Of a DNA stretch of 64,000 nucleotides, positions 609 to 17,497 are shown in pieces. The stretch spans positions 186,001-250,000 of the forward strand of contig NZ_JAJAVQ010000005.1 in the NCBI RefSeq assembly GCF_020531985.1, written 5' to 3'. The notes below the pieces were generated by a model. The model made no database searches, was not told the DNA's origin, and was given only the letters and a program-made list of their open reading frames with translations. How positions within the stretch are numbered: the first letter of the stretch is position 1; each line of letters begins with the position of its first letter. Source of the stretch: Rheinheimera aquimaris (GTDB lineage: Bacteria > Pseudomonadota > Gammaproteobacteria > Enterobacterales > Alteromonadaceae). Made by a program: the position numbers and the translations under genes.

Positions 609-2000
609 TTGGCTGATTGGTTAACCCTCATTCCGGCGCTGGTCGCCATTGTTGTAGTATTGTGGCGCAAAGAAGTGATCCTGGCGTTGCTGTTGTCGTT
701 GTGCAGCGCCGAACTGCTGATTTTTTTGCAGGCCGGCCAGGGCGCCGGGGCTGGCTTGCTGCTGGACGGCGGTATTCAAACGCTGGAACGTATTGTTGCG
801 GTAACCAAAGATGGCGACAATGCCCGCATTCTGATGTTCTCGTTACTGGTAGGCGGCTTGCTGGCCTATATGCGCGACTCGGGTGGTGTATCGGCTACGG
901 TGAAATTGCTGGTCGATAAAGGCATTGCCAAATCAGGCCGTCAGGCTGGTTTACTGACGTTTTTTATCAGCTCTGTAACCTTTATCGAGTCTAACCTCAG
1001 TTCGCTGACAGCCGGTATCAGCTCACGGGGTTTATTCGACAAGTTCAAAATGAGCCGGGCACGGCTGGCATATATTATCGACAGCACCAGCGCCCCTATC
1101 TGCATCATTATTCTGCTAAACGGCTGGGGCGCCTATATTCTCGGCCTGCTCAGCACTTATTCCCTTGGGGAAAGCCCGGTATCAGTACTGATCGGCACTA
1201 TTCCGCTTAACTTTTATGCGTTGTTTACCCTAACCGTGGTGCTGTACACCATTATCAGCGGCAAAGTATATGGCCCGATGCGCAAAGCCGAGCAAGAGTT
1301 ACACACACTGGCGGCGCACACGGAAATAGACGTACCGCCGAGTAAAGCCAGCTTTATGCTGGTGCCGCTGTTTACCTTAGTGGCATCCATGATCGGCTTT
1401 ATGCTGATGACCGGCAATGGCCGACTGGTGGGTGGCTCGGGTTCACAATCAGTGCTCTATGCCACGACGCTGGCCTGTTTAGTCGCCTACTCTATGATGT
1501 TGTTCAGTAAGCGCTTTAAGCATCAGCAGCTGGTTGATATTGGCTTTAAAGGCATGAGCGAATTACTGCCGCTGGTCACCATAGTACTGTTATCACTGGC
1601 GCTCGGCAGCAGCCTTAAACTGCTGGGCACCGGTACTTTTATTGCGTCCATCGTTAACGACAGCTTGCCGCTGGTACTGATACCGGCGCTGTTGTTTTTA
1701 GCCGGTGCATTGATCTCGTTTACCACCGGTACCAGTTGGGGCACTTTTGCCATACTGATCCCGATTGGTATGCCTATGGTCGAACTGCTGGGACTGCCGC
1801 CGTCACTGGTGCTGGCAGCCATTTTAAGTGGCGGTGTGTTTGGCGATCACTGCTCGCCGATTTCCGACAGTACCGCGGTCAGCTCAGTTGCATCCGGCTG
1901 TGATTTACTCGAACACGTAAAAACCCAGCTACCTTATGCATTATTTTGTGGTGTACTGGCATTGCTGGCCTTTTTAACTGCCGGGGTATTAATGATATGA
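609..2000 (+). CDS. nhaC: NhaC-type Na+/H+ antiporter
   Basis: A 463-residue, highly hydrophobic inner-membrane protein with about a dozen membrane segments. It shows the features of the NhaC family: the SSVTFIESNLSSLTAG segment in the first half and the repeated motifs TTGTSWGTFAILIPIGMP and GVFGDHCSPISDSTAVSS in the second half. These transporters exchange Na+ for H+; some family members carry other substrates, so the ion is not certain. The start is TTG at 609, chosen because AGGAGG at 598-603 lies five bases upstream and no ATG fits as well. The stop overlaps the start of the dipeptidase gene (ATGA at 1997-2000), so the two are translationally coupled. Confidence 0.85.
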   Translation: MADWLTLIPALVAIVVVLWRKEVILALLLSLCSAELLIFLQAGQGAGAGLLLDGGIQTLERIVAVTKDGDNARILMFSLLVGGLLAYMRDSGGVSATVKLLVDKGIAKSGRQAGLLTFFISSVTFIESNLSSLTAGISSRGLFDKFKMSRARLAYIIDSTSAPICIIILLNGWGAYILGLLSTYSLGESPVSVLIGTIPLNFYALFTLTVVLYTIISGKVYGPMRKAEQELHTLAAHTEIDVPPSKASFMLVPLFTLVASMIGFMLMTGNGRLVGGSGSQSVLYATTLACLVAYSMMLFSKRFKHQQLVDIGFKGMSELLPLVTIVLLSLALGSSLKLLGTGTFIASIVNDSLPLVLIPALLFLAGALISFTTGTSWGTFAILIPIGMPMVELLGLPPSLVLAAILSGGVFGDHCSPISDSTAVSSVASGCDLLEHVKTQLPYALFCGVLALLAFLTAGVLMI

Positions 2001-2674
2001 AAAGCCTGATACTAAGCAGCATGTTGCTGGCAGCATCAGTGGCGGCAACTGAACCACCGGTACCGGACGATTTTACCGATATCAGCACATTAAGCGCCGA
2101 TATTCAGGTGCATATGGCGTATCTGGGTACTAATAACTTTGTTGGCAGCCGTGTTGATGGCTATCAGGCCAATAAATGCTTCCTGCAGCGTGATGCTGCC
2201 CAAGCACTGGTCAAAGTGCAGCAGGCTGCGGCGGCGCAGGGGCTTACGCTTTGGGTGTATGACTGCTACCGGCCACAGCGGGCGGTAAACCATTTTATGC
2301 GCTGGGCCAGCGATTTAAGCGATACCAGCACCAAAGCGCAGTACTACCCCAATCTGCCTAAAGACAAGCTGGTCGGCGAGTATATCGCGGAAAAATCCGG
2401 CCACAGCCGTGGCAGCACGGTGGATTTAACACTGGCACAAAAAGACGCGGCCGGTAACTGGCAGCCACTGGATATGGGCTCAAAGTTTGATATGTTTGAC
2501 CCGGTATCCAATGTTGGCGCCGAGGGTATTACCAAGCAACAGCAGGCAAACCGGCAACGGCTGGAAAGCCTGATGCTGGGCGCTGGCTTTAAGGTATACA
2601 ACATGGAATGGTGGCACTTTACCCATCAGCCACCGGCCTACACCGACCGCTACTTTGACTTTATTGTAAAGTAG
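1997..2674 (+). CDS. Exported D-Ala-D-Ala dipeptidase (VanX/DdpX family, M15D)
   Basis: The protein is 225 residues when started at the ATG that overlaps the nhaC stop; an upstream in-frame extension to 1946 lies inside nhaC and lacks the signal peptide at its start. Residues 1-17 are a signal peptide, so it acts in the periplasm. M15D metal and catalytic motifs are visible: YDCYRPQRAV (the arginine of the family), SGHSRGSTVDLTL with the His and Asp ligands, and NMEWWHF with the catalytic Glu and third His ligand. The family hydrolyses D-Ala-D-Ala and related dipeptides from peptidoglycan turnover. Without van genes nearby, a cell-wall recycling role is more likely than vancomycin resistance. 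Coupling to a cation antiporter is unusual. Confidence 0.85.
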   Translation: MKSLILSSMLLAASVAATEPPVPDDFTDISTLSADIQVHMAYLGTNNFVGSRVDGYQANKCFLQRDAAQALVKVQQAAAAQGLTLWVYDCYRPQRAVNHFMRWASDLSDTSTKAQYYPNLPKDKLVGEYIAEKSGHSRGSTVDLTLAQKDAAGNWQPLDMGSKFDMFDPVSNVGAEGITKQQQANRQRLESLMLGAGFKVYNMEWWHFTHQPPAYTDRYFDFIVK

Positions 2675-2678
2675 CCAG

Positions 2679-3098
2679 CTACAGCGCCGCACGCTGGCGC
2701 TGAAACATCTGCATCGCCAGTTCATCCTGCTGCTTTTGTTCACGCCGCTGCAGCTGTATCAGCTGCTGTTGCTGGCGGTTATCCAGAATTTGCTGTAGCG
2801 CCAGATTATAGGCGGCCTGTTTGCTGCAGGCTTGCTGCTGGCGGCTGGCCTCCTGCTCGGCCTGGGCACTGCGTTGCTGTTGCTGCTGCGCCATATCCTG
2901 CAAAATATGTTTTAAACCAGACAGGTTTTGTAAGCTCAGGCTGCAGCGCATCTGCTGATTACTTTCCATCGCATCGATATGCTGTGCCAGTAACTGCGCA
3001 CGCTGCTGTTCAAAATCTGCCTTCTGCTGCAGCTGGCCGTGGCGGCTGCGCATAATGTCGAAGTTATCCTGTTGCGTCTGCAAATATTTTTTCAGCAT
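2679..3098 (-). CDS. fliJ: Lateral flagellar export chaperone FliJ
   Basis: A 139-residue, very Gln-rich, coiled-coil protein with almost no hydrophobic core, directly after fliI as the last gene of the motY-lafK-fliEFGHIJ operon. FliJ is the stalk-like component of the flagellar export ATPase: it sits in the FliI hexamer, contacts FlhA and recycles chaperones. Identification depends mainly on position, size and predicted all-helical coiled coil, because FliJ sequences are poorly conserved. Its stop lies five bases from the stop of the convergent dipeptidase gene, with no obvious terminator between them. Confidence 0.8.
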   Translation of the reverse strand: MLKKYLQTQQDNFDIMRSRHGQLQQKADFEQQRAQLLAQHIDAMESNQQMRCSLSLQNLSGLKHILQDMAQQQQQRSAQAEQEASRQQQACSKQAAYNLALQQILDNRQQQQLIQLQRREQKQQDELAMQMFQRQRAAL

Positions 3099-3099
3099 G

Positions 3100-4416
3100 C
3101 TACACCGCCAGCTTCGTCAGTTGTTGTTCAGTCTCGGCAAAATCGACCTGCTCGTTCAGGCCCTGACACAAAAATGCTTCTATTTTCGGGTAGATTGCCA
3201 CAGCATTATCCAGCTCAGTGTCTTTACCCGGCTGATAAGCGCCCAGCGGGATCAGCTCCTGTATTTGCTGATAGCGGCTGTACAGCCGTTTTAAGCTGTA
3301 ACAACTTTTCAGCTGGGTCGCTGACACGATATTCGGCATAACGCGGCTTATCGACGCACCGATATCAATGGCCGGATAATGACCGCGCTCTGCCAGTTGC
3401 CGGCTTAATACAATATGGCCATCCAGAATGGCGCGGGCGGCATCGGCTATCGGGTCCTGCTGATCATCACCTTCTGCCAGCACGGTATAAATGGCGGTCA
3501 TACTACCACTGCTGTCACTGCTGTTACCGGCGCGCTCTACCAGTTGCGTCAGCTTACTGAATACCGAAGGCGGGTAACCGCGCGTGGCCGGTGGCTCGCC
3601 TACCGATAAGGCTATTTCGCGCTGCGCCTGGGCATAACGGGTAAGAGAGTCAACCAGCAGCAATACGTGCAGGCCCTGATCGCGGAACCAGGCCGCCAGC
3701 CGGTGCGCCAGCTCTGCGGTACGCATCCGTAGCAGTGGCGACTGATCGGCCGGTGCCGCTACTACTATGGCTTTTTTCATGCCATCCGGCCCCAGGCTAT
3801 GCTCGATAAAATCTTTTACTTCCCAGCCACGCTCGCCCACCAGGCCTACGATCACCACATCAGCACTGGTAAAACGGGTCATCATGCCAAGCAGTTTACT
3901 TTTACCGACGCCGGAGCCGGCAAACAGGCCCAGACGCTGGCCCTGTCCCACAGTAAACAGCCCGTTGATCGCTTTAATGCCCACATCCAAAGGCGTAGTG
4001 ACACCTTTTTTCTGCATCGGGTTAACGGCCATATTCTGGCTGCTGATTTGCTCACCGCGTTGCAGCGGCGGGCCATCATCAAGCGGTTGCAATAAGCCGT
4101 CTACCACGCGGCCAAGCAGGGCATGGCTAACCGTTAGCGCCTGTTTGGCCTGTGGCCGCACCCGGGCACCGGTGCTCAGTTCGCTGGCATCGGTCAGCGG
4201 CATCAAAAATGCCTGCTCACGGTCAAAGCCGACTACTTCGGCTTCTATCCAGTGTCCGGCTTGCCCCTCTACCTGATAACGCTGCCCCAGTGTGTACTGG
4301 CCGCCCGCTACCGTCAGTAGCATACCGTTTACCCGCACCAGGGTGCCGAAGCTCTGATATAAAGGCCCGGCCTGTAGCTCGTTGGTGGCCTGCTGTAGCC
4401 GGTTAAGTAGCGTCAT
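3100..4416 (-). CDS. fliI: Lateral flagellar export ATPase FliI
   Basis: A 438-residue F1-beta-like ATPase that energises type III export of rod, hook and filament proteins. The Walker A loop GLFAGSGVGKSKL, the VLLLVDSLTRYAQAQREIAL segment (Walker B and following helix) and GEPPATRGYPPSVFSKL are all characteristic of FliI. The start is placed at the ATG at 4414-4416 (MTLLNRLQQ); the open frame continues upstream but that part reads inside fliH and has no FliI-like sequence. The gene overlaps the end of fliH by 14 bases, as is common in this operon. FliH upstream is its negative regulator, FliJ downstream its stalk. Confidence 0.95.
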   Translation of the reverse strand: MTLLNRLQQATNELQAGPLYQSFGTLVRVNGMLLTVAGGQYTLGQRYQVEGQAGHWIEAEVVGFDREQAFLMPLTDASELSTGARVRPQAKQALTVSHALLGRVVDGLLQPLDDGPPLQRGEQISSQNMAVNPMQKKGVTTPLDVGIKAINGLFTVGQGQRLGLFAGSGVGKSKLLGMMTRFTSADVVIVGLVGERGWEVKDFIEHSLGPDGMKKAIVVAAPADQSPLLRMRTAELAHRLAAWFRDQGLHVLLLVDSLTRYAQAQREIALSVGEPPATRGYPPSVFSKLTQLVERAGNSSDSSGSMTAIYTVLAEGDDQQDPIADAARAILDGHIVLSRQLAERGHYPAIDIGASISRVMPNIVSATQLKSCYSLKRLYSRYQQIQELIPLGAYQPGKDTELDNAVAIYPKIEAFLCQGLNEQVDFAETEQQLTKLAV

Positions 4417-5041
4417 TATGGCTGCCCAGTAGCTGTTGCTGCACCTGCGGCAGCAGGTTTTGCAGACGCTGGCGAAAATCAGCCAGATGCAACTGCGTCG
4501 CGCCAACAAACACCGCGCTGCCTGCGGCCAGCTTAGCGTCTGCCTGCAGTGTCACAGTACCCAGTGCGGTTTGCTGCAGCTGCTGCCACCAGACCAGATC
4601 CTGCGGCGACAGCCGTATCGCACTAATGTGCTCATTGACCTGCAATACCGGCAACAGCGTGTTTATCGCCTGCTGCAAATGCGCCGGCTGTAAGCTCAAC
4701 TCGGCCTCCAGCGTCAGTTCGCTTAGTTTACTGACCAGTTCAAACACCGCCTGTGCCAGTTGTTGCTCCTGCTGCTGGTGATGTTGTTGCAACTGCTGTT
4801 CAAGCTGTTGTAATTGCTGCGCAAACTGCTGGCGCAGCTCCATCACAGCGTTTTGCAGCTGGTTGTCAGCCTCGGCACGGGCAGCCTGCTCGGCTTGCTG
4901 CTTAAGCTGCCGCTCTGCGTCTTCAGCGCCCAGCCGTTTACCTTCTGTCAGGCCGCGTTCAAACGCCTGCTGTAACTGCAGTTCGATAGCGGGCGACGAT
5001 ACATCGCGCTGCACGCCGGGAAAGCGATACAGATCGGCCAT
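4403..5041 (-). CDS. fliH: Lateral flagellar assembly protein FliH
   Basis: A 212-residue protein with an extended Gln/Glu-rich coiled coil in its middle (about residues 40-105) and a conserved C-terminal globular domain, the layout of FliH. FliH binds FliI in the cytoplasm, restrains its ATPase activity and docks it at the C-ring. The coiled coil is rich in QQLEQQLQQ-like heptads. It lies between fliG and fliI, three bases after fliG. Identification rests on position, the N-terminal YRFPG segment and domain layout. Confidence 0.88.
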   Translation of the reverse strand: MADLYRFPGVQRDVSSPAIELQLQQAFERGLTEGKRLGAEDAERQLKQQAEQAARAEADNQLQNAVMELRQQFAQQLQQLEQQLQQHHQQQEQQLAQAVFELVSKLSELTLEAELSLQPAHLQQAINTLLPVLQVNEHISAIRLSPQDLVWWQQLQQTALGTVTLQADAKLAAGSAVFVGATQLHLADFRQRLQNLLPQVQQQLLGSHNDAT

Positions 5042-5044
5042 AAC

Positions 5045-6064
5045 TTACCCCAGTGTCGCTTCTTCGTATAAGCGGTAATCGACTTCGTTTTTCGCCATCA
5101 TCTGGCGGATCATCCGCATAATTTCGGCCCGCGCCGCTTCTACCTTACTAACCGCCTGTGCTTTGGTGTTTTCAATTTGCTGACGGTACACCTGCGCCAG
5201 CCGCTTGGGCAGTGCCGACATAATGCTGTCCAGCATGGCCGGTTCGCAGCCTTTTAATGCGACGACCCACAGCTCGTCCGGAATTTCGTTCAGCAAGTAA
5301 GCCAGGACATCTTCGCTTTGCCGGGCCAGTGAGGCGAAATCATACATTTTGTCCTGCACGGCTTCTGCGGTTTGGGCATTGTGCTGTTTCAGCAGTTCCA
5401 TTACCTCGGCCTTATTACCGTTGTAACGGTTCATGATTTCGGCCACTTTCTCCACGCCGTTTACCCGCGCGCCGACCTGTTCGCCGACAAACTCGATACA
5501 GGCTTCCAGCGTATGGCGTAAATCATCCATCACATGTTCGCTGACTTCGCGCAGGCTGGCAATGCGAAACAGAATATCGTCGTGCTTTTGTTTCGGGAAC
5601 AAGGCAATAACCGCCGATGCCTGCTCCGGCGGTAAAAACGCCAGCATCAGCGCCTGCATTTGCATATGCTCCTGTTCTAAAAAGCGGGCCAGCAACTCTG
5701 CGGGCACCCACTCCAGCCGGCGCAAGTCATCTGCCAGTGCGCCGCCGTAGATATCGTCCAGCATGCCACGCGCCAGTTTGCGGCCGACCGCTTTATCCAG
5801 CGCCCGCTCCAGATATAAGCGAGAGGCACCGCTAACGCCGCTCTCATTACGGTAGCAGTCGAAAAAATCAGTCAGGATCAGCGCAACATCATCCTGCGTA
5901 ACGTTGGTAATTTTTGCCATCCGCTCGGACAAAGCTTTCACTTCATGCCGGCTCAGTTTTTTGATGATGCCGGCCGCATTTTCTTCCCCCATGCTCAGCA
6001 ATAAAATGGCTGCCCGATCTAAATCGGTAATAGTGCGGCTATGTTCAGGCTTTAGTTGATTCAA
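5045..6064 (-). CDS. fliG: Lateral flagellar motor switch protein FliG
   Basis: 339 residues, the usual FliG length. The N-terminal LDRAAILLLSMGEENAAGIIKKLS segment binds FliF; the middle has LAFLPPEQASAVIALFPK; the C-terminal domain ends in VAARAEIMRMIRQMMAKNEV-type helices carrying charged residues that contact the stator. FliG forms the upper C-ring and converts ion flow through MotA/MotB into torque. The gene overlaps fliF by 20 bases, which suggests coupled translation of the two partner proteins. Confidence 0.95.
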   Translation of the reverse strand: MNQLKPEHSRTITDLDRAAILLLSMGEENAAGIIKKLSRHEVKALSERMAKITNVTQDDVALILTDFFDCYRNESGVSGASRLYLERALDKAVGRKLARGMLDDIYGGALADDLRRLEWVPAELLARFLEQEHMQMQALMLAFLPPEQASAVIALFPKQKHDDILFRIASLREVSEHVMDDLRHTLEACIEFVGEQVGARVNGVEKVAEIMNRYNGNKAEVMELLKQHNAQTAEAVQDKMYDFASLARQSEDVLAYLLNEIPDELWVVALKGCEPAMLDSIMSALPKRLAQVYRQQIENTKAQAVSKVEAARAEIMRMIRQMMAKNEVDYRLYEEATLG

Positions 6065-7766
6065 TGCTGACTCCTCGCTCTACCCAATATTTAATCACCG
6101 CGGTTACCCGGTCAGACTCTTTGCTGGCCAGGAGTTGCATATGTGAAATCTGCTCAGCAAACTCTGACCCGACCTGCGGCAGGTTAATCGCGTTAAAGCC
6201 TGGTTGCGGCATGTCGTCGGCCGCAGCCGCCGCCTCTTCCACTGTTCTGGCATCAGCCTTGGCACTGAGTAAAGAAGGGCTGTCATCCGCACTGCCGGTA
6301 AAGGCATTGCCGGTGTCAGGTTCACGCTGCTTTTTACCGCTAATCAGGTGATTAACCAGCGGCCGCACACCAAATAAAATCAGCGCCAGCGCAATTAAGC
6401 TGCCAAACACATAACGGGCATATTCTTTTACTTCCGGCAGTTGCCACCACGGCAAGCCACTTTGTACGCCCGCCCTTTCTGCCGGGGCAACAAAACCAAA
6501 GCTGGTGATATTAAACTGGTCACCACGCTCGGCCTGAAAACCGGTAGCGGTTTTGACCATTTCACCCAGCTGTTGCAACTGTGCCTGGCTCCAGCCGGTA
6601 TCGCCCGCTGCTGCCTCGTTCACCAACACCGATACGCTCATCGACTTTAACCGGCCAACTTCAAATTTGGTGTGTGTCACGGCGCGGCCATTATCAAACT
6701 GACGGCTGCTTTCATTGCGCTCGGACGTACGCTGGTTGTCATCCGCCCCTTGTTGATCTGCCGGTAATGGTGGCTGGTTAGCCAGCGAGCCCGGGATGCC
6801 CATCGCCAGCTGGTCCTGCATAGTGTCTGTTTTGACGGATTCAGAACGTACTACCGAAGCCGGATCTATCGCTTCACGGGTTTCTTCTACCACACTGAAG
6901 TCAACATCAGATGACACCTGAATCCGGTAGTTACCTTCGCCAAGAATTGGCAGCAGCATAATGGCGGCACGCTGCTCAATGTTGCGCTCAAGCTTTTGAA
7001 TAAAGGCGAGTTTCTTATCTGTTTCTTTGCCGATTGGCGCTTCATCGTACAAATCGCCGGTCAGCAGCTTACCGCTTTGGTCGACCACTGATACTTTACG
7101 CGGGTCCAGCCCCGGTACACTGCCGGCAATAAGGCTGACAATGGCTTCAACCTGGGTGGCTTTAAGCTCATAACCCGGGGTCAGATCAACCATCACCGAC
7201 GCTGCTGATTTCTCTTCCTGCCGGCCAATAAATACGCTGCGCTTTGGCACGGCCAGATGCACACGGCTGTTACGCACACCGTCCATGGTAATAATGGTGC
7301 GGGCCAGTTCCCCTTCCAATGCATGCTGATACTGCATCGACTCCATAAACTGGCTGGTACCCATGGTTACCTTGTCACCTATTGTCGACAAGCCTTCCGG
7401 CATTGCTGCCTTTATACCACGGGCCGCTAAGGTAATACGGGCGTCGGCCAGACGGTCTTGCGGTACCATGATATTGCCGGTGTCGGTATCGATACGGAAC
7501 GCGACCTGCTCTTTATCAAGGATCTCCAGAATACCGGCTTTATCATAGTGTTCCTGGTTACCATACAGCGGCACATAGTTTTTCGCCGAGGTCCATAAAA
7601 TCAGCACTATGGTTGCTGCCACCAGTGTTGCCAACAAGGCAATAGACGCCATACTGCGATCACCGCCGGGCAACCAGCTGAACCGGCTGGACAGATTAAT
7701 CACTTTCTCGCGAAAGTTACCTTCAATCGCTGCCGCAGGCATTTTCTTTACCACTTCGCCTTTCAT
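6045..7766 (-). CDS. fliF: Lateral flagellar MS-ring protein FliF
   Basis: 573 residues with a membrane segment near residues 40-60 (SIALLATLVAATIVLILW) and a second near 450-470 (VFGSLIALALILFGVRPLV). The periplasmic domain between them has ring-building motifs such as GNYRIQVSSDVDFS and RVHLAVPKRSVF. The C-terminal cytoplasmic tail after the second membrane segment binds FliG. FliF forms the MS-ring that anchors the basal body and houses the export gate. It is ten bases downstream of fliE, the rod adaptor that joins MS-ring and rod. Confidence 0.95.
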   Translation of the reverse strand: MKGEVVKKMPAAAIEGNFREKVINLSSRFSWLPGGDRSMASIALLATLVAATIVLILWTSAKNYVPLYGNQEHYDKAGILEILDKEQVAFRIDTDTGNIMVPQDRLADARITLAARGIKAAMPEGLSTIGDKVTMGTSQFMESMQYQHALEGELARTIITMDGVRNSRVHLAVPKRSVFIGRQEEKSAASVMVDLTPGYELKATQVEAIVSLIAGSVPGLDPRKVSVVDQSGKLLTGDLYDEAPIGKETDKKLAFIQKLERNIEQRAAIMLLPILGEGNYRIQVSSDVDFSVVEETREAIDPASVVRSESVKTDTMQDQLAMGIPGSLANQPPLPADQQGADDNQRTSERNESSRQFDNGRAVTHTKFEVGRLKSMSVSVLVNEAAAGDTGWSQAQLQQLGEMVKTATGFQAERGDQFNITSFGFVAPAERAGVQSGLPWWQLPEVKEYARYVFGSLIALALILFGVRPLVNHLISGKKQREPDTGNAFTGSADDSPSLLSAKADARTVEEAAAAADDMPQPGFNAINLPQVGSEFAEQISHMQLLASKESDRVTAVIKYWVERGVSIESTKA

Positions 7767-7776
7767 TGCCTTGTCC

Positions 7777-8097
7777 TTACAGTGACATCCGCATTACATC
7801 GTCAATACCGCTCATTACCTTGTTACGCACCTGCAGCAGCATCGAAAAACTCAAACCCGCTTTCTGGCTGGCCACCATGGCGCCAATCACATCGTCACTG
7901 CGGCCGGTATCAACTGCCGTCATCATGTCCGCGGCAATGTTCTGCTGCTGGTTGATGTTGCGGATCACGGCAGAAAAGTCTTCGCTGATACCGACACTAT
8001 TGCTGGCGGGCGCGATGCGCTCACTGCTGGCAGTTTGTTGTAGCCTGGTCATCATTTCCAGCATCTGGCTCTGGCTGTCTATTGGTGAAATCATCAT
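7777..8097 (-). CDS. fliE: Lateral flagellar hook-basal body protein FliE
   Basis: 106 residues, the normal FliE size, ending in GLSFSMLLQVRNKVMSGIDDVMRMSL, which matches the conserved C-terminus of the family (LLQVRNKLVxAYQEIMRM). FliE is the first protein exported and connects the MS-ring to the FlgB rod. Placement directly before fliF is typical. Its separation from lafK by seven bases puts both in one transcript. Confidence 0.93.
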   Translation of the reverse strand: MMISPIDSQSQMLEMMTRLQQTASSERIAPASNSVGISEDFSAVIRNINQQQNIAADMMTAVDTGRSDDVIGAMVASQKAGLSFSMLLQVRNKVMSGIDDVMRMSL

Positions 8098-8104
8098 AAA
8101 ATCC

Positions 8105-9418
8105 TTAAGAAGCTAATGCGTCAATGTCGACACCATGCTCACGCATGGCCGCCAGTTTGTAACGTAGTGCACGGGTACTGACACCCAGAGCTTCTGCAGT
8201 ACGGGTGCGGTGGCCGTTAAATTTCTGCAGCAAATCCAGAATGTAATCAAATTCAGCATTCTGTTTGCTTTGCTTGAGCAGGCTGGCACAAATGGCCGCT
8301 GCCTGCGGATGACAACGGGGTAAATTCAGATCCGCCACCTGCAGCTCGATACCCCGGGCCATCACCAGCGCCCGCTGCATCACGTTTTCCAGCTCGCGCA
8401 CATTGCCTGGCCAGTTGTACTGCAGCATTACGTCGGCAGCGTCCCGGCTTAAGCGGTACTTACCGTTGCCGTATTTGGTAATAAAGAATTCTGCCAGTGG
8501 CAAAATATCATCCCGTCTCTCGCGCAGCGCCGGCCAGCTCAGTGGTAACACGTCCAGGCGGTAAAATAAATCCTCGCGGAACAAGCCTTGCTCGACCTGA
8601 CTGCGCAGGTTCTTATTGCTGGCGGCAATGACACGGATATCCAGCTTAATGCGGCTATTGCTGCCCAGACGCTCTACCTCACGCTCCTGCAACACACGCA
8701 GCAACTTCGCTTGCAAGGGCAGCGGTAACTCAGAAATCTCATCCAGTAAGATGCTGCCGCCATTGGCGGCTTCGAATTTACCGATTTGCTGATTCACTGC
8801 GCCGGTAAAGGCGCCTTTGTTGTGACCAAACAGCATCGCCTCCAGCATATGCTCGGGAATAGCGGCGCAATTTACCGCTACGAAAGGCTGGTCAGCACGG
8901 TCTGATGCCTGATGAATAAAACGCGCCAGCCGCTCTTTACCGGTACCTGATTCACCCAGGATCAGCACGCTGGCTTCAGTTTGCGCAGCGCGGTTGGCCA
9001 ATTGCAAAATCTGCCGGCTGGCGTGTGACACCGCCACCAGATCTTTTAACCCCGCGCTCATGGCGGTAGCGTTACGTACTGAGGTTTTTACCTGAGAGGC
9101 GAAAAAAGGTTTAAGTAAATAATCAATTGCGCCGCTTTGTAAGGTTTCAGAGGCCAGCGCACTTTGGTTTGAATCAACCATGCTGATAATCTGTGCAGCC
9201 GGCAGCTTACGGTGTACCAGAGCGACCAGGTCTGGTAACGCCATTTGCACCATGGCACTGTCAATAAAGACCAGTGCTGGCTTGTAATCCTGACACAGGC
9301 TGACAACCTGCGTCACATCAGCAGCATGCAGCAACTGGTATCCTTCAGCGCAGATGCACTGATGCACCTCATTACAGGGTGCTTGCTGCTCTATCCATAA
9401 CACATAAGGTGATTTCAT
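8105..9418 (-). CDS. lafK: Sigma-54-dependent lateral flagellar master regulator (LafK/FlrC-like)
   Basis: 437 residues with three domains. Residues 1-115 form a receiver-like domain with Asp53 and the LLKPF lysine (Lys103), but the usual acidic pair is reduced to Glu10-Gln11, so phosphorylation is doubtful. Residues about 130-355 are an AAA+ domain: Walker A GESGTGKE at 155-162, GAFTGA at 202-207 (contacts sigma-54) and LLDE Walker B near 224. The last 45 residues carry a Fis-type helix-turn-helix (TRTAEALGVSTRALRYKL). The order motY-lafK-fliE is that of the lateral cluster of Vibrio parahaemolyticus, where LafK activates the early lateral genes. Candidate binding sites are annotated at 22163 and 36601. 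Confidence 0.92.
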   Translation of the reverse strand: MKSPYVLWIEQQAPCNEVHQCICAEGYQLLHAADVTQVVSLCQDYKPALVFIDSAMVQMALPDLVALVHRKLPAAQIISMVDSNQSALASETLQSGAIDYLLKPFFASQVKTSVRNATAMSAGLKDLVAVSHASRQILQLANRAAQTEASVLILGESGTGKERLARFIHQASDRADQPFVAVNCAAIPEHMLEAMLFGHNKGAFTGAVNQQIGKFEAANGGSILLDEISELPLPLQAKLLRVLQEREVERLGSNSRIKLDIRVIAASNKNLRSQVEQGLFREDLFYRLDVLPLSWPALRERRDDILPLAEFFITKYGNGKYRLSRDAADVMLQYNWPGNVRELENVMQRALVMARGIELQVADLNLPRCHPQAAAICASLLKQSKQNAEFDYILDLLQKFNGHRTRTAEALGVSTRALRYKLAAMREHGVDIDALAS

Positions 9419-9435: not shown

Positions 9436-10290
9436 TCAGGAAGTGGTTCGGATTAACCGGATAGACACCCGGCGGTTAGATTGTTCAGCTTTGCCCTGCG
9501 CCGGTAACAGCGGATAGCGGTTACCGTGGGCTCTGATTTCCAGCATGCTGGCTTTTACCCCCAGCTCTATCAGCCTGGATGCCACCTCATCGGCGCGCTC
9601 CTGCGACAACACACGGTTTGCTAAAGGTGTTCCCACGTCATCGGTATGGCCGTCGATCAGGATTTTTTTGATGCTGTTATCCAGCTGCAGATAGCGCGCC
9701 AGCTTCTGTAAGCCGGGTAATTGCTGGCGGTCAACCTGACGTTTACCGGAGGCAAAATAGATTTCGGTGTCGCGGGCCTGCTGCCAGGACAGTGGTGACA
9801 TTTGCGCAACGCAGCCCTGAAATTTGTCTACAGCATCGGCGGCGCGCACACTGGTCAGCACTAACTGCTGCTGCGCATCACCCAAATCAAACTGTAACCA
9901 GGCGCCTTGCTGCAGCTGATGCAACAACGGTAAAGCCGCTTGCAGAAAACTGACTTCACTGTCCTGATATAACTCGGCAACGTACTGCTGTGCCGCTACA
10001 GGTTGTGAGCTTTGCCAGTCGGCCGGACGGGCCATTACGCTGACCTGCTGCAATGCTGAATGAGGCTGTGCCAGCGCCAGGTTAAGCCGCAGCGGCTGAC
10101 CAGGCTCCAACGCGAAACTAACCTGCCCCAAACCTCTGACCTGCTGCTGTAACTGGCAATAAAAAGGATCGCTGTTAAGCTGCCATTTGGCCTGCTCTGC
10201 CGGTTGCGTCAGCAGTGCTGCCGTCACCAGTGCCCCTGGCAGGCTGGCGCTTAACCACAAACTGAAAGACAATACAGACACCCTATACAC
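9436..10290 (-). CDS. motY: Lateral flagellar T-ring-type motor protein MotY
   Basis: 284 residues with an N-terminal signal segment, an N-terminal beta domain (about residues 30-170) and a C-terminal OmpA/MotB-type peptidoglycan-binding domain (IDGHTDDVG, NRVLSQERADEV, NRRVSIRLI). This two-domain layout is that of MotY, which surrounds the rod and places stators. It heads the lafK operon as in Vibrio lateral clusters. The start is uncertain: GTG at 10290 gives the listed protein, but a second GTG at 10281 preceded by a TATAGG sequence is possible. A cyclic di-GMP riboswitch lies about 135 bases upstream. Confidence 0.85.
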   Translation of the reverse strand: MYRVSVLSFSLWLSASLPGALVTAALLTQPAEQAKWQLNSDPFYCQLQQQVRGLGQVSFALEPGQPLRLNLALAQPHSALQQVSVMARPADWQSSQPVAAQQYVAELYQDSEVSFLQAALPLLHQLQQGAWLQFDLGDAQQQLVLTSVRAADAVDKFQGCVAQMSPLSWQQARDTEIYFASGKRQVDRQQLPGLQKLARYLQLDNSIKKILIDGHTDDVGTPLANRVLSQERADEVASRLIELGVKASMLEIRAHGNRYPLLPAQGKAEQSNRRVSIRLIRTTS

Positions 10291-10424
10291 CTTTTATTTT
10301 GTCATTACCCTCACGCCGGGCAAACAGCCTGGCGCAGCAAAATAAAAAGCAAACGGCATAGAACAGCACAGGACACTGACGGTTTAGCCATAGTGAAACG
10401 GCTAACGCCAGTGAATGGCGCTAA

Positions 10425-10512
10425 GCTAATGCGACCCCGCTGTCGTAGCGTTTTTACACGCCGTAGACCGGAAGCTTTGCGTCCTGCCCTTTCGGTGCAG
10501 TTTGCCTTTTAA
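10425..10512 (-). promoter_or_regulatory. Cyclic di-GMP-I (GEMM) riboswitch upstream of motY-lafK-fliEFGHIJ
   Basis: Read on the minus strand, this segment has the hallmarks of GEMM-I in order: GGCAAAC, a stem CTGCACC/GGGCAG closed by a GAAA tetraloop, the conserved GGACGCAAAGC, then CTTCCGGTCTAC, a GCGT/ACGC hairpin and CTACGACAGCGGGGTCGC. The last part matches the AGCGGGG segment of Vibrio cholerae aptamers almost base for base. It points at motY, with the next coding sequence 135 bases downstream. The expression platform is not obvious: two alternative hairpins follow (TAGCGCCA/TGGCGTTA at about 10402-10425, and GTTAGCC/GGCTAAAC at about 10382-10407) that share bases and cannot both form. 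Confidence 0.9.
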
Positions 10513-10570
10513 TTGTCTTAACAAGCTCACAAATCCGACCAGATTTATGAACTGAAACTGAATAACGCAA

Positions 10571-10599
10571 ACGATATCGAAATTACGGTAGCTTAGCAA
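10571..10599 (-). promoter_or_regulatory. Possible sigma-70 promoter for the riboswitch-motY-lafK transcript
   Basis: On the minus strand TTGCTA and TATCGT are separated by 17 bases, four of six matches in each box. Initiation here would give a leader of about 50 bases before the aptamer. No sigma-54 consensus is visible between the riboswitch and flhA, which fits lafK being at the top of the hierarchy. This is a weak match and only a candidate. Confidence 0.25.
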
Positions 10600-10817
10600 G
10601 AGTATTTTTTAACAATATCTAATATGATGTTTAAGATCATACATTTGCACCTGCATATTTTTTCGCCAGCCGCTAACATAATTCCAACACTGCTCTGACC
10701 TGCTGCGTTTATAAACTGACTAAACAGTAAGAAAAACTGCAAAACTATCTAAACGGACACAGCAAGCCAGCTTGCATTATCTGTGCATATTATGGCGCTA
10801 TGATGACAGCCGGTGTT
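10600..10817. other. Non-coding stretch between flhA end and the riboswitch promoter
   Basis: AT-rich DNA with no open frame of note. The only structure seen is a GCAAGC-CA-GCTTGC palindrome at 10762-10775, which as RNA could form only a short 5-bp hairpin without a T-tract, so flhA has no clear terminator. It may be a protein-binding site upstream of the lafK operon. Confidence 0.4.
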
Positions 10818-12890
10818 TTAGCCCAGCGCGCCGATAACATTTACCCGCAGATTTTCCGGAATTTCGTTATACGACAACACGGCCAGTGAGTTCTGGGTAA
10901 AAGTGCGGGCGTAACGTGCCAGCAATGGCCTCAACTGTGGGATCACCACCAGCGCCGGTGTATGCCCCTGCTGCTGCATCTGGCTGCAAATCAGTGGCAT
11001 ATTGCGCTGGAATTGGCTCAGCAGGTTGGGTGCCACCGGGAAGCTATCCAGTGTCACTTTTCCGGTCTGCATCGCCTGATTCAGCGCGCTTTGCAGCGTT
11101 TGCTCCAGCTTTTCATCCAGCGTAAAGGCCGCCAGTTCATCTTTGTCGCCACTGATTTGCCGTACCAGCGCCCGCTGCAAGGCACAGCGTACGTCCGAGG
11201 TTAACAACAGCGGATCCTTGGTCACTTCGCTGCTATCGAGCAGTGTGCTGGCAATGGTTAAAATGTCGCCAAGGCTAACCTGCTCACGCAGTAGCAAGCG
11301 ATACACTTTCAGCTGCACCGTGGCGCTAAGCGCTTTATCCAGCGCTTCGGCCAGCACCGGCGCCACATTCGCCAGCCGTTTATTCAGCTGTTTTACATCT
11401 TCATAGACAAACAGCTCAGACAAATGCTCTTTAATCAGTTTACCGGCATGGGTCGCAATCACTGTGGCGAGATCAACAACCGAATAGCCCAGGTTCAGTG
11501 CTTTGGCACGACTATTGGTATCTATCCACACCGCTTCCAGGCCATAAGCCGGGTCGCGGGTAATTTCACCGTCCAGCTGGCCGTAAATTTCACCGGTATT
11601 CAGCGCCAGCAATTGTTGTGGATTAAGCCGCCCCGACGCTACCGGCACGCCGGCAAGTTTGATGCGGTATTCCTGCGGGTTCAGCTGCAGATTATCGCGC
11701 ACCCTTACCTCTGGCAGTAAAAAGCCGCTTTGCTCTGACAGGGTTTTACGAATACCGCGTAGCGTTTGCACCAGTTCTTCGCCTTTTTCTTTGTCTGCCA
11801 GGTAAACCAGCCTGAACCCCAATTCAATCGACAGCCGATCCACATGTGGAATATCATCCCAGCCCAGTGTTTTTGGCGTTTTCGCGATCGTTTCAGTCAG
11901 CCGCTCGGCCTGAATAAGTTCGCCTTTATCCACTCGTTGTTGTAAGCGCCAGGCGACATAAATCAGTGGCAGGCCAAAACCAATAAAGGCCATGGCCGGC
12001 ATGCCAGGCACGGCACCGAGGATCAGCATGATGCCGCCGGTAGTCAGCAACACCCGTGGTGAGGCCAGCAGCTGCTTACCAACCTCATCAGACATTTCGC
12101 CTTCATCGTTCATCCGGGTAACGATAATGGCCGCCGCAACCGCCAGCAGTAATGACGGGATTTGCGCGACTAAGCCATCACCTATCGTCAGCAGAGCAAA
12201 GCGCTGAAAGGCTTCCGCCATGCTCAGGCCATGCTGGAATACCCCGATGCTGATACCACCCAGCAGGTTAATCACCAGAATGATCAGGCCAGCAATGGCA
12301 TCACCACGCACAAACTTGGACGCACCGTCCATGGAGCCGTAAAAATCGGCCTCTCTTGCTACTTCTGACCGGCGATCTTTTGCCTGCTCCGGCCCGATTA
12401 AACCGGCGTTTAAGTCGGCATCTATTGCCATTTGTTTGCCGGGCAAGGCGTCAAGCGTAAAGCGGGCTGCTACTTCTGAAATCCGTTCACCACCTTTAGT
12501 GATAACCACAAAGTTAATCACCATCAGAATAACAAACACCACCATACCGACGACGTAATTGCCGCCGATCACCACTTCACCGAAGGCCTGTATTACACGG
12601 CCGGCAACGTCAGAGCCCTCATGGCCGTGTAGTAACACCACCCGGGTTGAAGCAATATTCAGTGTCAGCCGCATCAGTGTGGCCACCAGCAGTACGGTCG
12701 GGAATACCGAGAAATCGAGCGGTTTCTTACTAGATACCGCGACCAGCAGCACGATAACCGACAGCACGATATTAAAGGTGAACAGGGCATCCAGCATCCA
12801 GGCTGGCAGCGGTAACACTACCATGGCCAGAATGGCCAGCAGCAATACCGGAATAGCGGTGTAAGGTTGGGTCAGTATGCGCCAGTTCAC
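10818..12890 (-). CDS. flhA: Lateral flagellar export gate protein FlhA
   Basis: 690 residues: eight membrane segments in the first half and a large cytoplasmic domain in the second. The loop GGERISEVAARFTLDALPGKQMAIDADLNAGLI contains the conserved FHIPEP-type region. FlhA forms the nonameric export-gate ring and docks chaperone-substrate complexes. It is the last gene of the fliT-to-flhA operon, three bases after flhB. Confidence 0.96.
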   Translation of the reverse strand: MNWRILTQPYTAIPVLLLAILAMVVLPLPAWMLDALFTFNIVLSVIVLLVAVSSKKPLDFSVFPTVLLVATLMRLTLNIASTRVVLLHGHEGSDVAGRVIQAFGEVVIGGNYVVGMVVFVILMVINFVVITKGGERISEVAARFTLDALPGKQMAIDADLNAGLIGPEQAKDRRSEVAREADFYGSMDGASKFVRGDAIAGLIILVINLLGGISIGVFQHGLSMAEAFQRFALLTIGDGLVAQIPSLLLAVAAAIIVTRMNDEGEMSDEVGKQLLASPRVLLTTGGIMLILGAVPGMPAMAFIGFGLPLIYVAWRLQQRVDKGELIQAERLTETIAKTPKTLGWDDIPHVDRLSIELGFRLVYLADKEKGEELVQTLRGIRKTLSEQSGFLLPEVRVRDNLQLNPQEYRIKLAGVPVASGRLNPQQLLALNTGEIYGQLDGEITRDPAYGLEAVWIDTNSRAKALNLGYSVVDLATVIATHAGKLIKEHLSELFVYEDVKQLNKRLANVAPVLAEALDKALSATVQLKVYRLLLREQVSLGDILTIASTLLDSSEVTKDPLLLTSDVRCALQRALVRQISGDKDELAAFTLDEKLEQTLQSALNQAMQTGKVTLDSFPVAPNLLSQFQRNMPLICSQMQQQGHTPALVVIPQLRPLLARYARTFTQNSLAVLSYNEIPENLRVNVIGALG

Positions 12891-16204: not shown

Positions 16205-17085
16205 GCTAGTGTCTCTTTGGTTGCTATATCGGTGATCTGAAATACCAGGCCGTTCGCATCTTCTGCTACCTTGCCTGAAAATAGGGTGCGGTTATTCAGC
16301 ATAAAACTCATGTCGCTGTGCAGCTCTATCGGTAAGATCTCGCCTTTCAGGCCCTGCTGCAGTTGCTGTAAGCTAACTTTCTTTCGTGCCATTTCTACCC
16401 TGCACTGCACCGGCACCTGTGGCCACGGCGACATATCAACAGCGCTGACGCTGACCGGGCTTTCTTCTGAAGCGGCACTGAAAAACGCCAGCGGTAGCCA
16501 GACAAACCAGCTGATGGCCTCAGCATCCAGCAACAGACGAACCTTCAGCGGCAGATACTGAAAGCGGGCGGGTTCCAGTTGCTGCTTGACCGCAGTAGCT
16601 GGCAGCGCCGATTGCTCTTTAAATAAAAAGTGCTGTATTGCCTGCAACTGCCGCTGCGCGATACGGCTGCAGATGCGCAGCTCAGAGGCACTAAGCTCAG
16701 GTTTCTCCTCCAGCGCCACCACTTTGCTGAGCTGGCCGCCAAGCGACAGGTCGGCCAGATGGTGCACACCGGTATAATCCAGCGCCATGTAACAGTAACT
16801 GTCGGTTGGTACCAGCACCGGACATTGCAGTAACAGACGGCCAGGCTCTGCCAGCCAGCTATCCAGGCCTGTGCCCTGACATAAACTCAGCTCTATACTG
16901 AATTCCACATCAGTCAACAGCCGGCTCAGTTCAGTCTCTACGGCCTGAGCCAGTTCAGGCAAATGCTGTTTAGCGGCCATGCTGGCCTGGCTAAAACGGC
17001 GCTGATCCAGCGTCAGCGCGAACGGCTGATAACGGCCAGCGGCATCGGCGGCGATAATAACGCCGGTTTTTTTGTGCTTATTCAT
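16201..17085 (-). CDS. fliM: Divergent lateral flagellar switch protein FliM
   Basis: 294 residues, shorter than the roughly 330 of enteric FliM. The C-terminal 80 residues are a SpoA domain like FliN (VPVQCRVEMARKKVSLQQLQQ, GEILPIEL). The central region (about 40-190) is only weakly FliM-like: the conserved GGxG loop that meets FliG reads SLGGQLSK. The N-terminus MNKHKKTGVIIAADAAG lacks the LSQxEIDALL peptide that binds CheY-P, so this motor is probably not directly reversed by chemotaxis signalling. Assignment rests on the SpoA domain and position just before fliN. Confidence 0.82.
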   Translation of the reverse strand: MNKHKKTGVIIAADAAGRYQPFALTLDQRRFSQASMAAKQHLPELAQAVETELSRLLTDVEFSIELSLCQGTGLDSWLAEPGRLLLQCPVLVPTDSYCYMALDYTGVHHLADLSLGGQLSKVVALEEKPELSASELRICSRIAQRQLQAIQHFLFKEQSALPATAVKQQLEPARFQYLPLKVRLLLDAEAISWFVWLPLAFFSAASEESPVSVSAVDMSPWPQVPVQCRVEMARKKVSLQQLQQGLKGEILPIELHSDMSFMLNNRTLFSGKVAEDANGLVFQITDIATKETLA

Positions 17086-17497
17086 CTGCTGTTACTTCTT
17101 GGTTTGCCCCGGCATCACGCGATACACGGTACGCTTTTTTGCTTAAACGCCGCAGTAAACGCAGCCGCTGTTCACGTTTGGTATCCAGCCAGCTGATGCC
17201 CAAAAACTCGAGCTTGTCGCTGACGGCACGGCGGTAAATCACTTCGGCTTTAATGCGGGTTTCACTGTCATACTCCACCACCAGCATATCCGGTACAGCT
17301 TTGCTAAGCGGCGCCAGCAAACCCGCACCACCGAGGCTGATATCTTTCACCACCGCCTGGCACAACTGCGAGCCAAACAGGCCCGGTTGCTTCAGTTTGA
17401 CGGCAATACCTTTGGTCTGAGTTTCGTGCGGCTGATTGGCGGTGCTGAAGTACCAGCGCAGATAACGTCTTGCAATATCGGGCTTAGTTGCTGGCAT
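17078..17497 (-). CDS. PilZ-domain protein in the lateral motor operon (possible c-di-GMP flagellar brake)
   Basis: 139 residues. Both PilZ signature elements are present: RxxxR at Arg10-Arg14 (RRYLR) and DxSxxG at Asp52-Gly57 (DISLGG), so it should bind cyclic di-GMP. A Lys/Arg-rich helix follows the domain. It is fused into the operon with 14-base overlap to motB upstream and 8-base overlap to fliM downstream, between stator and switch genes. By analogy with YcgR, it may act on the motor itself. YcgR has an additional N-terminal domain that is absent here, so the mode of action could differ. Confidence 0.8.
   Translation of the reverse strand: MPATKPDIARRYLRWYFSTANQPHETQTKGIAVKLKQPGLFGSQLCQAVVKDISLGGAGLLAPLSKAVPDMLVVEYDSETRIKAEVIYRRAVSDKLEFLGISWLDTKREQRLRLLRRLSKKAYRVSRDAGANQEVTADE

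Follow-up and report, generated by a model that had tools for sequence, protein, structure and literature searches.

A class I cyclic di-GMP aptamer conserved upstream of the lateral flagellar motY-lafK operon: a predicted translational OFF switch

The closest known case to the element described here is Cd1 (Cdi-1-3), a class I cyclic di-GMP (c-di-GMP) riboswitch before the flgB operon of Clostridioides difficile that is an OFF switch acting by termination (PMC6366702). The two class I switches of Vibrio cholerae have opposite signs and do not use termination; both ON and OFF switches occur in class I, and the sign is not transferable between systems (PMC6366702). For lateral flagella, PilZ proteins have been described. 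In Pseudoalteromonas SM9913, most lateral genes depend on a LafK homologue, and the cluster encodes the PilZ protein FilZ (PMC10304486), and MotL of Shewanella putrefaciens is a PilZ protein of the lateral cluster (PMC8203827). The OpaR regulon of V. parahaemolyticus includes strong repression of lafK; the one c-di-GMP riboswitch in the RNA table of that study is of class II and stands elsewhere than lafK (PMC4406679). Among the matches listed in a search of the open-access literature, with subscription journals mostly outside its scope, we found no riboswitch described ahead of lafK or of a lateral flagellar operon, in agreement with what an earlier reading of the letters alone (the sequence-only reading) had supposed.

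We analyzed a 64-kb stretch of Rheinheimera aquimaris DNA (the window), on whose minus strand that reading had placed a GEMM-I aptamer. Searching with cmscan bore this out, as the Rfam c-di-GMP-I model RF01051 gave a significant match at positions 10516-10427 of the minus strand that was full length (model positions 1-87 of 87), its 71.3 bits (E 5.4e-12) exceeding the gathering score of 35. Nothing else in the 64-kb window reaches the gathering cut-off of an Rfam model, and RF01051 has two matches in the whole genome (4.2 Mb), this one included. The element had first been drawn at 10425-10512; the place was right, while the ends were 2 to 4 bases off. The motifs named for it are present in the sequence. 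The residue before CAAAC sets the preference for c-di-GMP over cGAMP, and a G precedes CAAAC in all 38 aptamers described below. The putative ligand is c-di-GMP.

The aptamer lies in the gap flanked by flhA (10818-12890) and motY. The predicted distance of about 135 bases to motY held, with 136 bases to the start of the longest open reading frame (GTG 10290, the start in the ORF list) and 145 to the likely start (GTG 10281), which has AAAAGG upstream. The lafK start, at 9418, is about 1 kb past the aptamer, also as predicted. Upstream of the aptamer, at 10624-10640 on the minus strand, a palindrome-like ATGATCTTAAACATCAT sits within a block conserved among ten Rheinheimera leaders and is possibly a regulator site. 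A simple scan of the leader region found no sigma-70 promoter on the minus strand.

Below the aptamer, all on the minus strand, are motY (9436..10281, lateral type, with its start assigned by the ribosome-binding site), a sigma-54-dependent activator with a receiver-like domain in the place of lafK (8105..9418), and fliE, fliF, fliG, fliH, fliI and fliJ (2679..8097). Pfam matches were above cut-off for MotY_N and OmpA (both in MotY), the sigma-54 activator, FliE, FliF, FliG, FliH and FliI, and below it for FliJ (23.9 versus 28.4 bits). Only 17 bases separate the motY stop from the start of the activator. Since no matching NCBIfam model names the sigma-54 protein LafK, we use this name by gene order; with that proviso and the low FliJ score, the operon motY-lafK-fliEFGHIJ is as the sequence-only reading gave it. 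A D-Ala-D-Ala dipeptidase gene (Peptidase_M15; 1946-2674, plus strand), with a VanX model below cut-off, adjoins the end of the flagellar operon.

The cluster also encodes MotA, MotB, a sigma factor, FliK and flagellin, and a polar-type MotY is encoded elsewhere in the same genome. Thus, the operon belongs to a second, lateral-type flagellar system. A PilZ-domain gene (17078-17497, minus strand) adjoins motB and motA of this cluster; by analogy with FilZ and MotL, its product is a possible second c-di-GMP input.

We compared the locus across the genus. RF01051 has at least one match in each of the 31 Rheinheimera genomes, so presence alone says little and place is the informative feature. A LafK orthologue occurs in ten of the 31 (825 bits or more, with the next best match at 361), and these ten are the same ten genomes that have an aptamer between flhA and motY. 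The other 21 genomes contributed 20 loci, each the best aptamer match of its genome, and none of these has a flagellar gene of the lateral set; the 31st genome (G003) contributed no locus. The locus of Rheinheimera oceanensis GL-53 (L061) carries the same genes as the window, and the aptamer core is near-invariant across the ten Rheinheimera leaders.

The aptamers of the genus that do not precede motY occupy 21 loci (L002 and L012-L031), and the downstream gene was read in 14. At 13 of these 14, including the second aptamer of the window genome, the open reading frame below encodes 123-133 residues with a similar start. It is a small exported protein with DUF3718 in the one tested, that of the window genome; L002 (G000:C13:187600-187697) is an example locus.

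Beyond the genus, the window MotY used as query had matches in 29 of 395 family genomes, in 8 of 52 genera; with a single query sequence run against 395 sampled genomes, divergent copies may have escaped. A class I aptamer lies upstream of motY in each of the 29 lateral loci found in the family, ten from Rheinheimera and 19 from elsewhere. Among the 19, the aptamer matched RF01051 in 18 and RF03167 (c-di-GMP-I-GGC) in one. In the order, where lateral MotY was separated from polar MotY by a score above 165 bits versus at most 150, the aptamer was present in all four loci of family f2 (one RF01051, three RF03167) and all four of family f15; lateral MotY was found in 4 of 11 f2 genomes and 4 of 5 f15 genomes. 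Family f6 had it in one of nine loci (L145, genome G629). It was absent from the single loci of f11 and Ferrimonas balearica, from two polar-type loci of f25 and from all 24 scanned loci of f21 (the f21 scan took 47 matches to 20 loci, 18 newly scanned and two scanned before). Weak aptamers were looked for in 16 of the 34 negative non-polar loci, and no GEMM match turned up at E up to 1. Going by genome form, genus g72 of f21 may be Vibrio, and genomes G352 and G367 may be Pseudoalteromonas. The sequence-only reading had drawn support from Vibrio studies; as the presumed Vibrio family has no aptamer at any of 24 scanned loci, these studies serve as analogy only. The same RNA, which that reading had suggested looking for in relatives, is present at 38 lateral motY loci.

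This placement is conserved in 38 lateral-type loci under 11 genus labels. LafK is beside MotY in 37 of the 38, and the 38th (L148) is at a contig end. We considered whether the aptamer is associated with flhA rather than motY-lafK. flhA is at 29 of the 38 positive loci; because the other nine (L056-L060 and L146-L149) have no flhA match in the fetched flank, we rejected this association.

We mapped the aptamer onto a tree of 74 MotY proteins (38 with and 36 without it). The trait needs one change (support 95/92), in a tree that carries a long-branch warning, as L056 and eight more loci meet the f15 rows and L165 meets L168. A single change was also recovered in 94% of 200 bootstrap trees, while shuffling the labels gave a mean of 25 changes, with none of 500 shuffles as low as observed. 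The 38 loci and the tree together led us to reject chance co-location of aptamer and motY. The sole aptamer-positive f6 locus, L145, groups within the positive MotY clade, a position that suggests the system was transferred as a whole. L165 and L168 have a divergent MotY adjoining fliF and lack a LafK match within the stretch fetched; perhaps they represent another kind of secondary flagellar set.

Just beyond the Rfam match, an outer P1 helix closes the aptamer. On the minus strand, its 5′ strand (TGTTAAG, 10517..10523) pairs with its 3′ strand (CTTAGCG, 10419..10425). We counted pairs in 25 of the 38 loci (f1 minus L056-L060, plus L145); the remaining 13 have helices in other registers and are outside the count. 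At pairs 2-5, 98 of 100 cells hold a standard pair and both strands show changes, and over all six pairs 131 of 150 cells pair, compared to 41 to 73 of 150 when the strands are slid. Thus, the closing P1 is kept by covariation.

Between P1 and motY, three minus-strand stretches of the leader are of interest. The first (10351..10363, TTCTATGCCGTTT; CTATGCAGTTTT in other Rheinheimera) is conserved in the alignment and partly complementary to the 5′ half of the aptamer, with which it pairs in the free-state fold of L003 and more weakly in the window itself. The second, an anti-Shine-Dalgarno strand (10338..10350, GCTTTTTATTTTG), pairs with the third, the motY ribosome-binding region (10290..10301, CAAAATAAAAGG), when the aptamer is set apart. 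Rheinheimera leaders share a conserved stretch around CTATGCAGTTTTCCTTTTATTTT, except that of the window, which differs in several letters. Within the leaders, CCUUUUAUUU complements the motY region AAAUAAAAGG and largely also the aptamer 5′ strand AAUUAAAAGG. In L003, the free-state fold joins the aptamer 5′ half to the downstream complementary stretch through about 20 pairs, and with the aptamer set apart CCUUUUAUUU pairs with the ribosome-binding region. The g45 group follows the same logic in other letters (L043). In short leaders, L050 and L055 among them, the predicted platform seems to be a different one, in which the P1 3′ strand would compete.

We calculated the cost of opening the ribosome-binding site in 37 of the 38 leaders (L060, which has no clear motY start, was left out), using two-dimensional folding that leaves ligand energy and tertiary contacts outside the model. 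In 34 of the 37, opening was costlier when the aptamer was set apart than when the full leader could fold, with medians of 8.6 and 3.7 kcal/mol, respectively (8.6 and 1.7 for the window). The f15 leaders L152, L157 and L159 go against the model, as their bound state is not costlier than the free one, and in L045 and L053 the two states differ by under 0.2 kcal/mol. Even in the free state, the lowest-energy fold of the window leader keeps the ribosome-binding site paired. Freeing the P1 3′ strand alone barely opens the site in Rheinheimera, the window excepted, so the aptamer 5′ half seems to matter more in this genus.

Shuffle controls were run on 13 of the 37 leaders, picked as group examples, with 60 shuffles each. 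In 11 of the 13, at most 3 of 60 linker shuffles reached the observed difference; L046 (9/60) and L145 (14/60) failed this control. Covering of the site in the bound state, taken alone, exceeded the linker shuffles (at most 5/60) in 8 of 13 and was not above them in L046, L054, L056, L145 and L147. When the aptamer itself was shuffled, its letters proved to matter in L003, L009, L042, L056 and L147 (1-3 of 60 shuffles opened the site equally), less in L001 (4/60), L054 and L162 (7/60 each), and little in L010, L046, L050, L055 and L145 (16-37/60). A simple scan for intrinsic terminators, covering the minus strand of 10270-10830 in this leader only, found none, and an intrinsic terminator was rejected as the control element.

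The sequence-only reading gave no mechanism; the folding calculations point to translation. In the model we favor, to which we assign a probability of roughly two in three, the message of motY-lafK-fliEFGHIJ is headed by a class I c-di-GMP riboswitch that would turn translation OFF. While c-di-GMP is low, the aptamer would not be locked, and in Rheinheimera-type leaders the CU-rich strand would tend to pair with the aptamer 5′ strand AAUUAAAAGG, which resembles the motY Shine-Dalgarno region. The ribosome-binding site would then be open and MotY made, along with LafK, either by coupling or because the two share a message. Binding of c-di-GMP would close P1 and the aptamer; the CU-rich strand, now free, would mask the ribosome-binding site of motY, and the cascade driven by LafK would fall. 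The two alternative pairings of the CU-rich strand are predictions of folding; the ligand, the sign of the switch and its effect on lafK are inferred. In favor of the model are the place of the aptamer in 38 loci, the covariation of P1, the folding results, the lack of a terminator in the scan and the OFF sign of Cd1. More tentatively, the element may be an RNA checkpoint of single origin, with no loss among the examined loci, in which the aptamer would imitate a ribosome-binding site: the CU-rich strand would hold either AAUUAAAAGG or motY AAUAAAAGG, and the ligand would hand the strand over.

Several alternatives bear on this model. It is possible, but unlikely, that the same aptamer ends transcription in the leader, through an intrinsic terminator or Rho. 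Untranslated RNA can invite Rho, and a U-rich stretch follows a long possible stem in the leader. Cd1, before C. difficile flgB, works by termination (PMC6366702), but the terminator scan of the minus strand came back empty, the U-rich stretch complements the ribosome-binding site and the base of the stem ahead of it is A/U-rich. Nor do we expect, except as a distinctly improbable outcome, that the aptamer is an ON switch through which c-di-GMP raises lateral flagella. Class I switches of both signs exist (Bc2 of B. thuringiensis is ON and the V. cholerae pair is opposite), but c-di-GMP usually favors the non-motile state (both from PMC6366702) and folding pointed the opposite way in the 34 of 37 leaders. 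We give little credence to the idea that the aptamer mainly sets the stability of the leader RNA or message and not initiation at motY, as this leaves the recurring complement to the motY ribosome-binding site unexplained. A precedent is Vc2 of V. cholerae, which is said to control an upstream small RNA by RNA stability. Lastly, although some C. difficile class I riboswitches are not functional (PMC6366702), a relic aptamer without function is scarcely credible given its constant position at 38 loci under 11 genus labels, the covarying P1, the single tree change and the near-invariant core in ten Rheinheimera leaders.

Control of surface motility by c-di-GMP has mostly been told through transcription factors and PilZ proteins. 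In the model proposed here, the message of the lateral master operon itself would read c-di-GMP. The aptamer class is known; what appears new is the target, its conservation across the clade and the platform predicted for it. The trait sets one branch of lateral flagellar systems apart from others that lack it, which cautions against extending the Vibrio model beyond its own lateral system. A further gain is a class I switch whose predicted translational platform is conserved enough for dissection.

The locus compares with the described systems as follows. As in V. parahaemolyticus, the lafK operon would be a control point of lateral flagella; there, however, repression occurs within the OpaR regulon, and the listed riboswitch is of class II and elsewhere. 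FilZ and MotL are c-di-GMP inputs encoded in lateral clusters, as the PilZ gene beside motAB in the window may be, but they are proteins that act on the motor or chemotaxis and not on the master-operon message. The V. cholerae switches belong to the same aptamer class, are gammaproteobacterial and do not work via termination; their targets, gbpA and tfoY, are not a flagellar operon, and the pair acts oppositely. Cd1 comes closest, with the same aptamer class heading a large flagellar operon with a cascade regulator (SigD for Cd1, a sigma-54 activator here) and an OFF sign (predicted here). In contrast to Cd1, which ends transcription in a peritrichous Gram-positive system, the Rheinheimera leader has no terminator found by our scan, its platform looks translational and its target is a secondary flagellar system of gammaproteobacteria.
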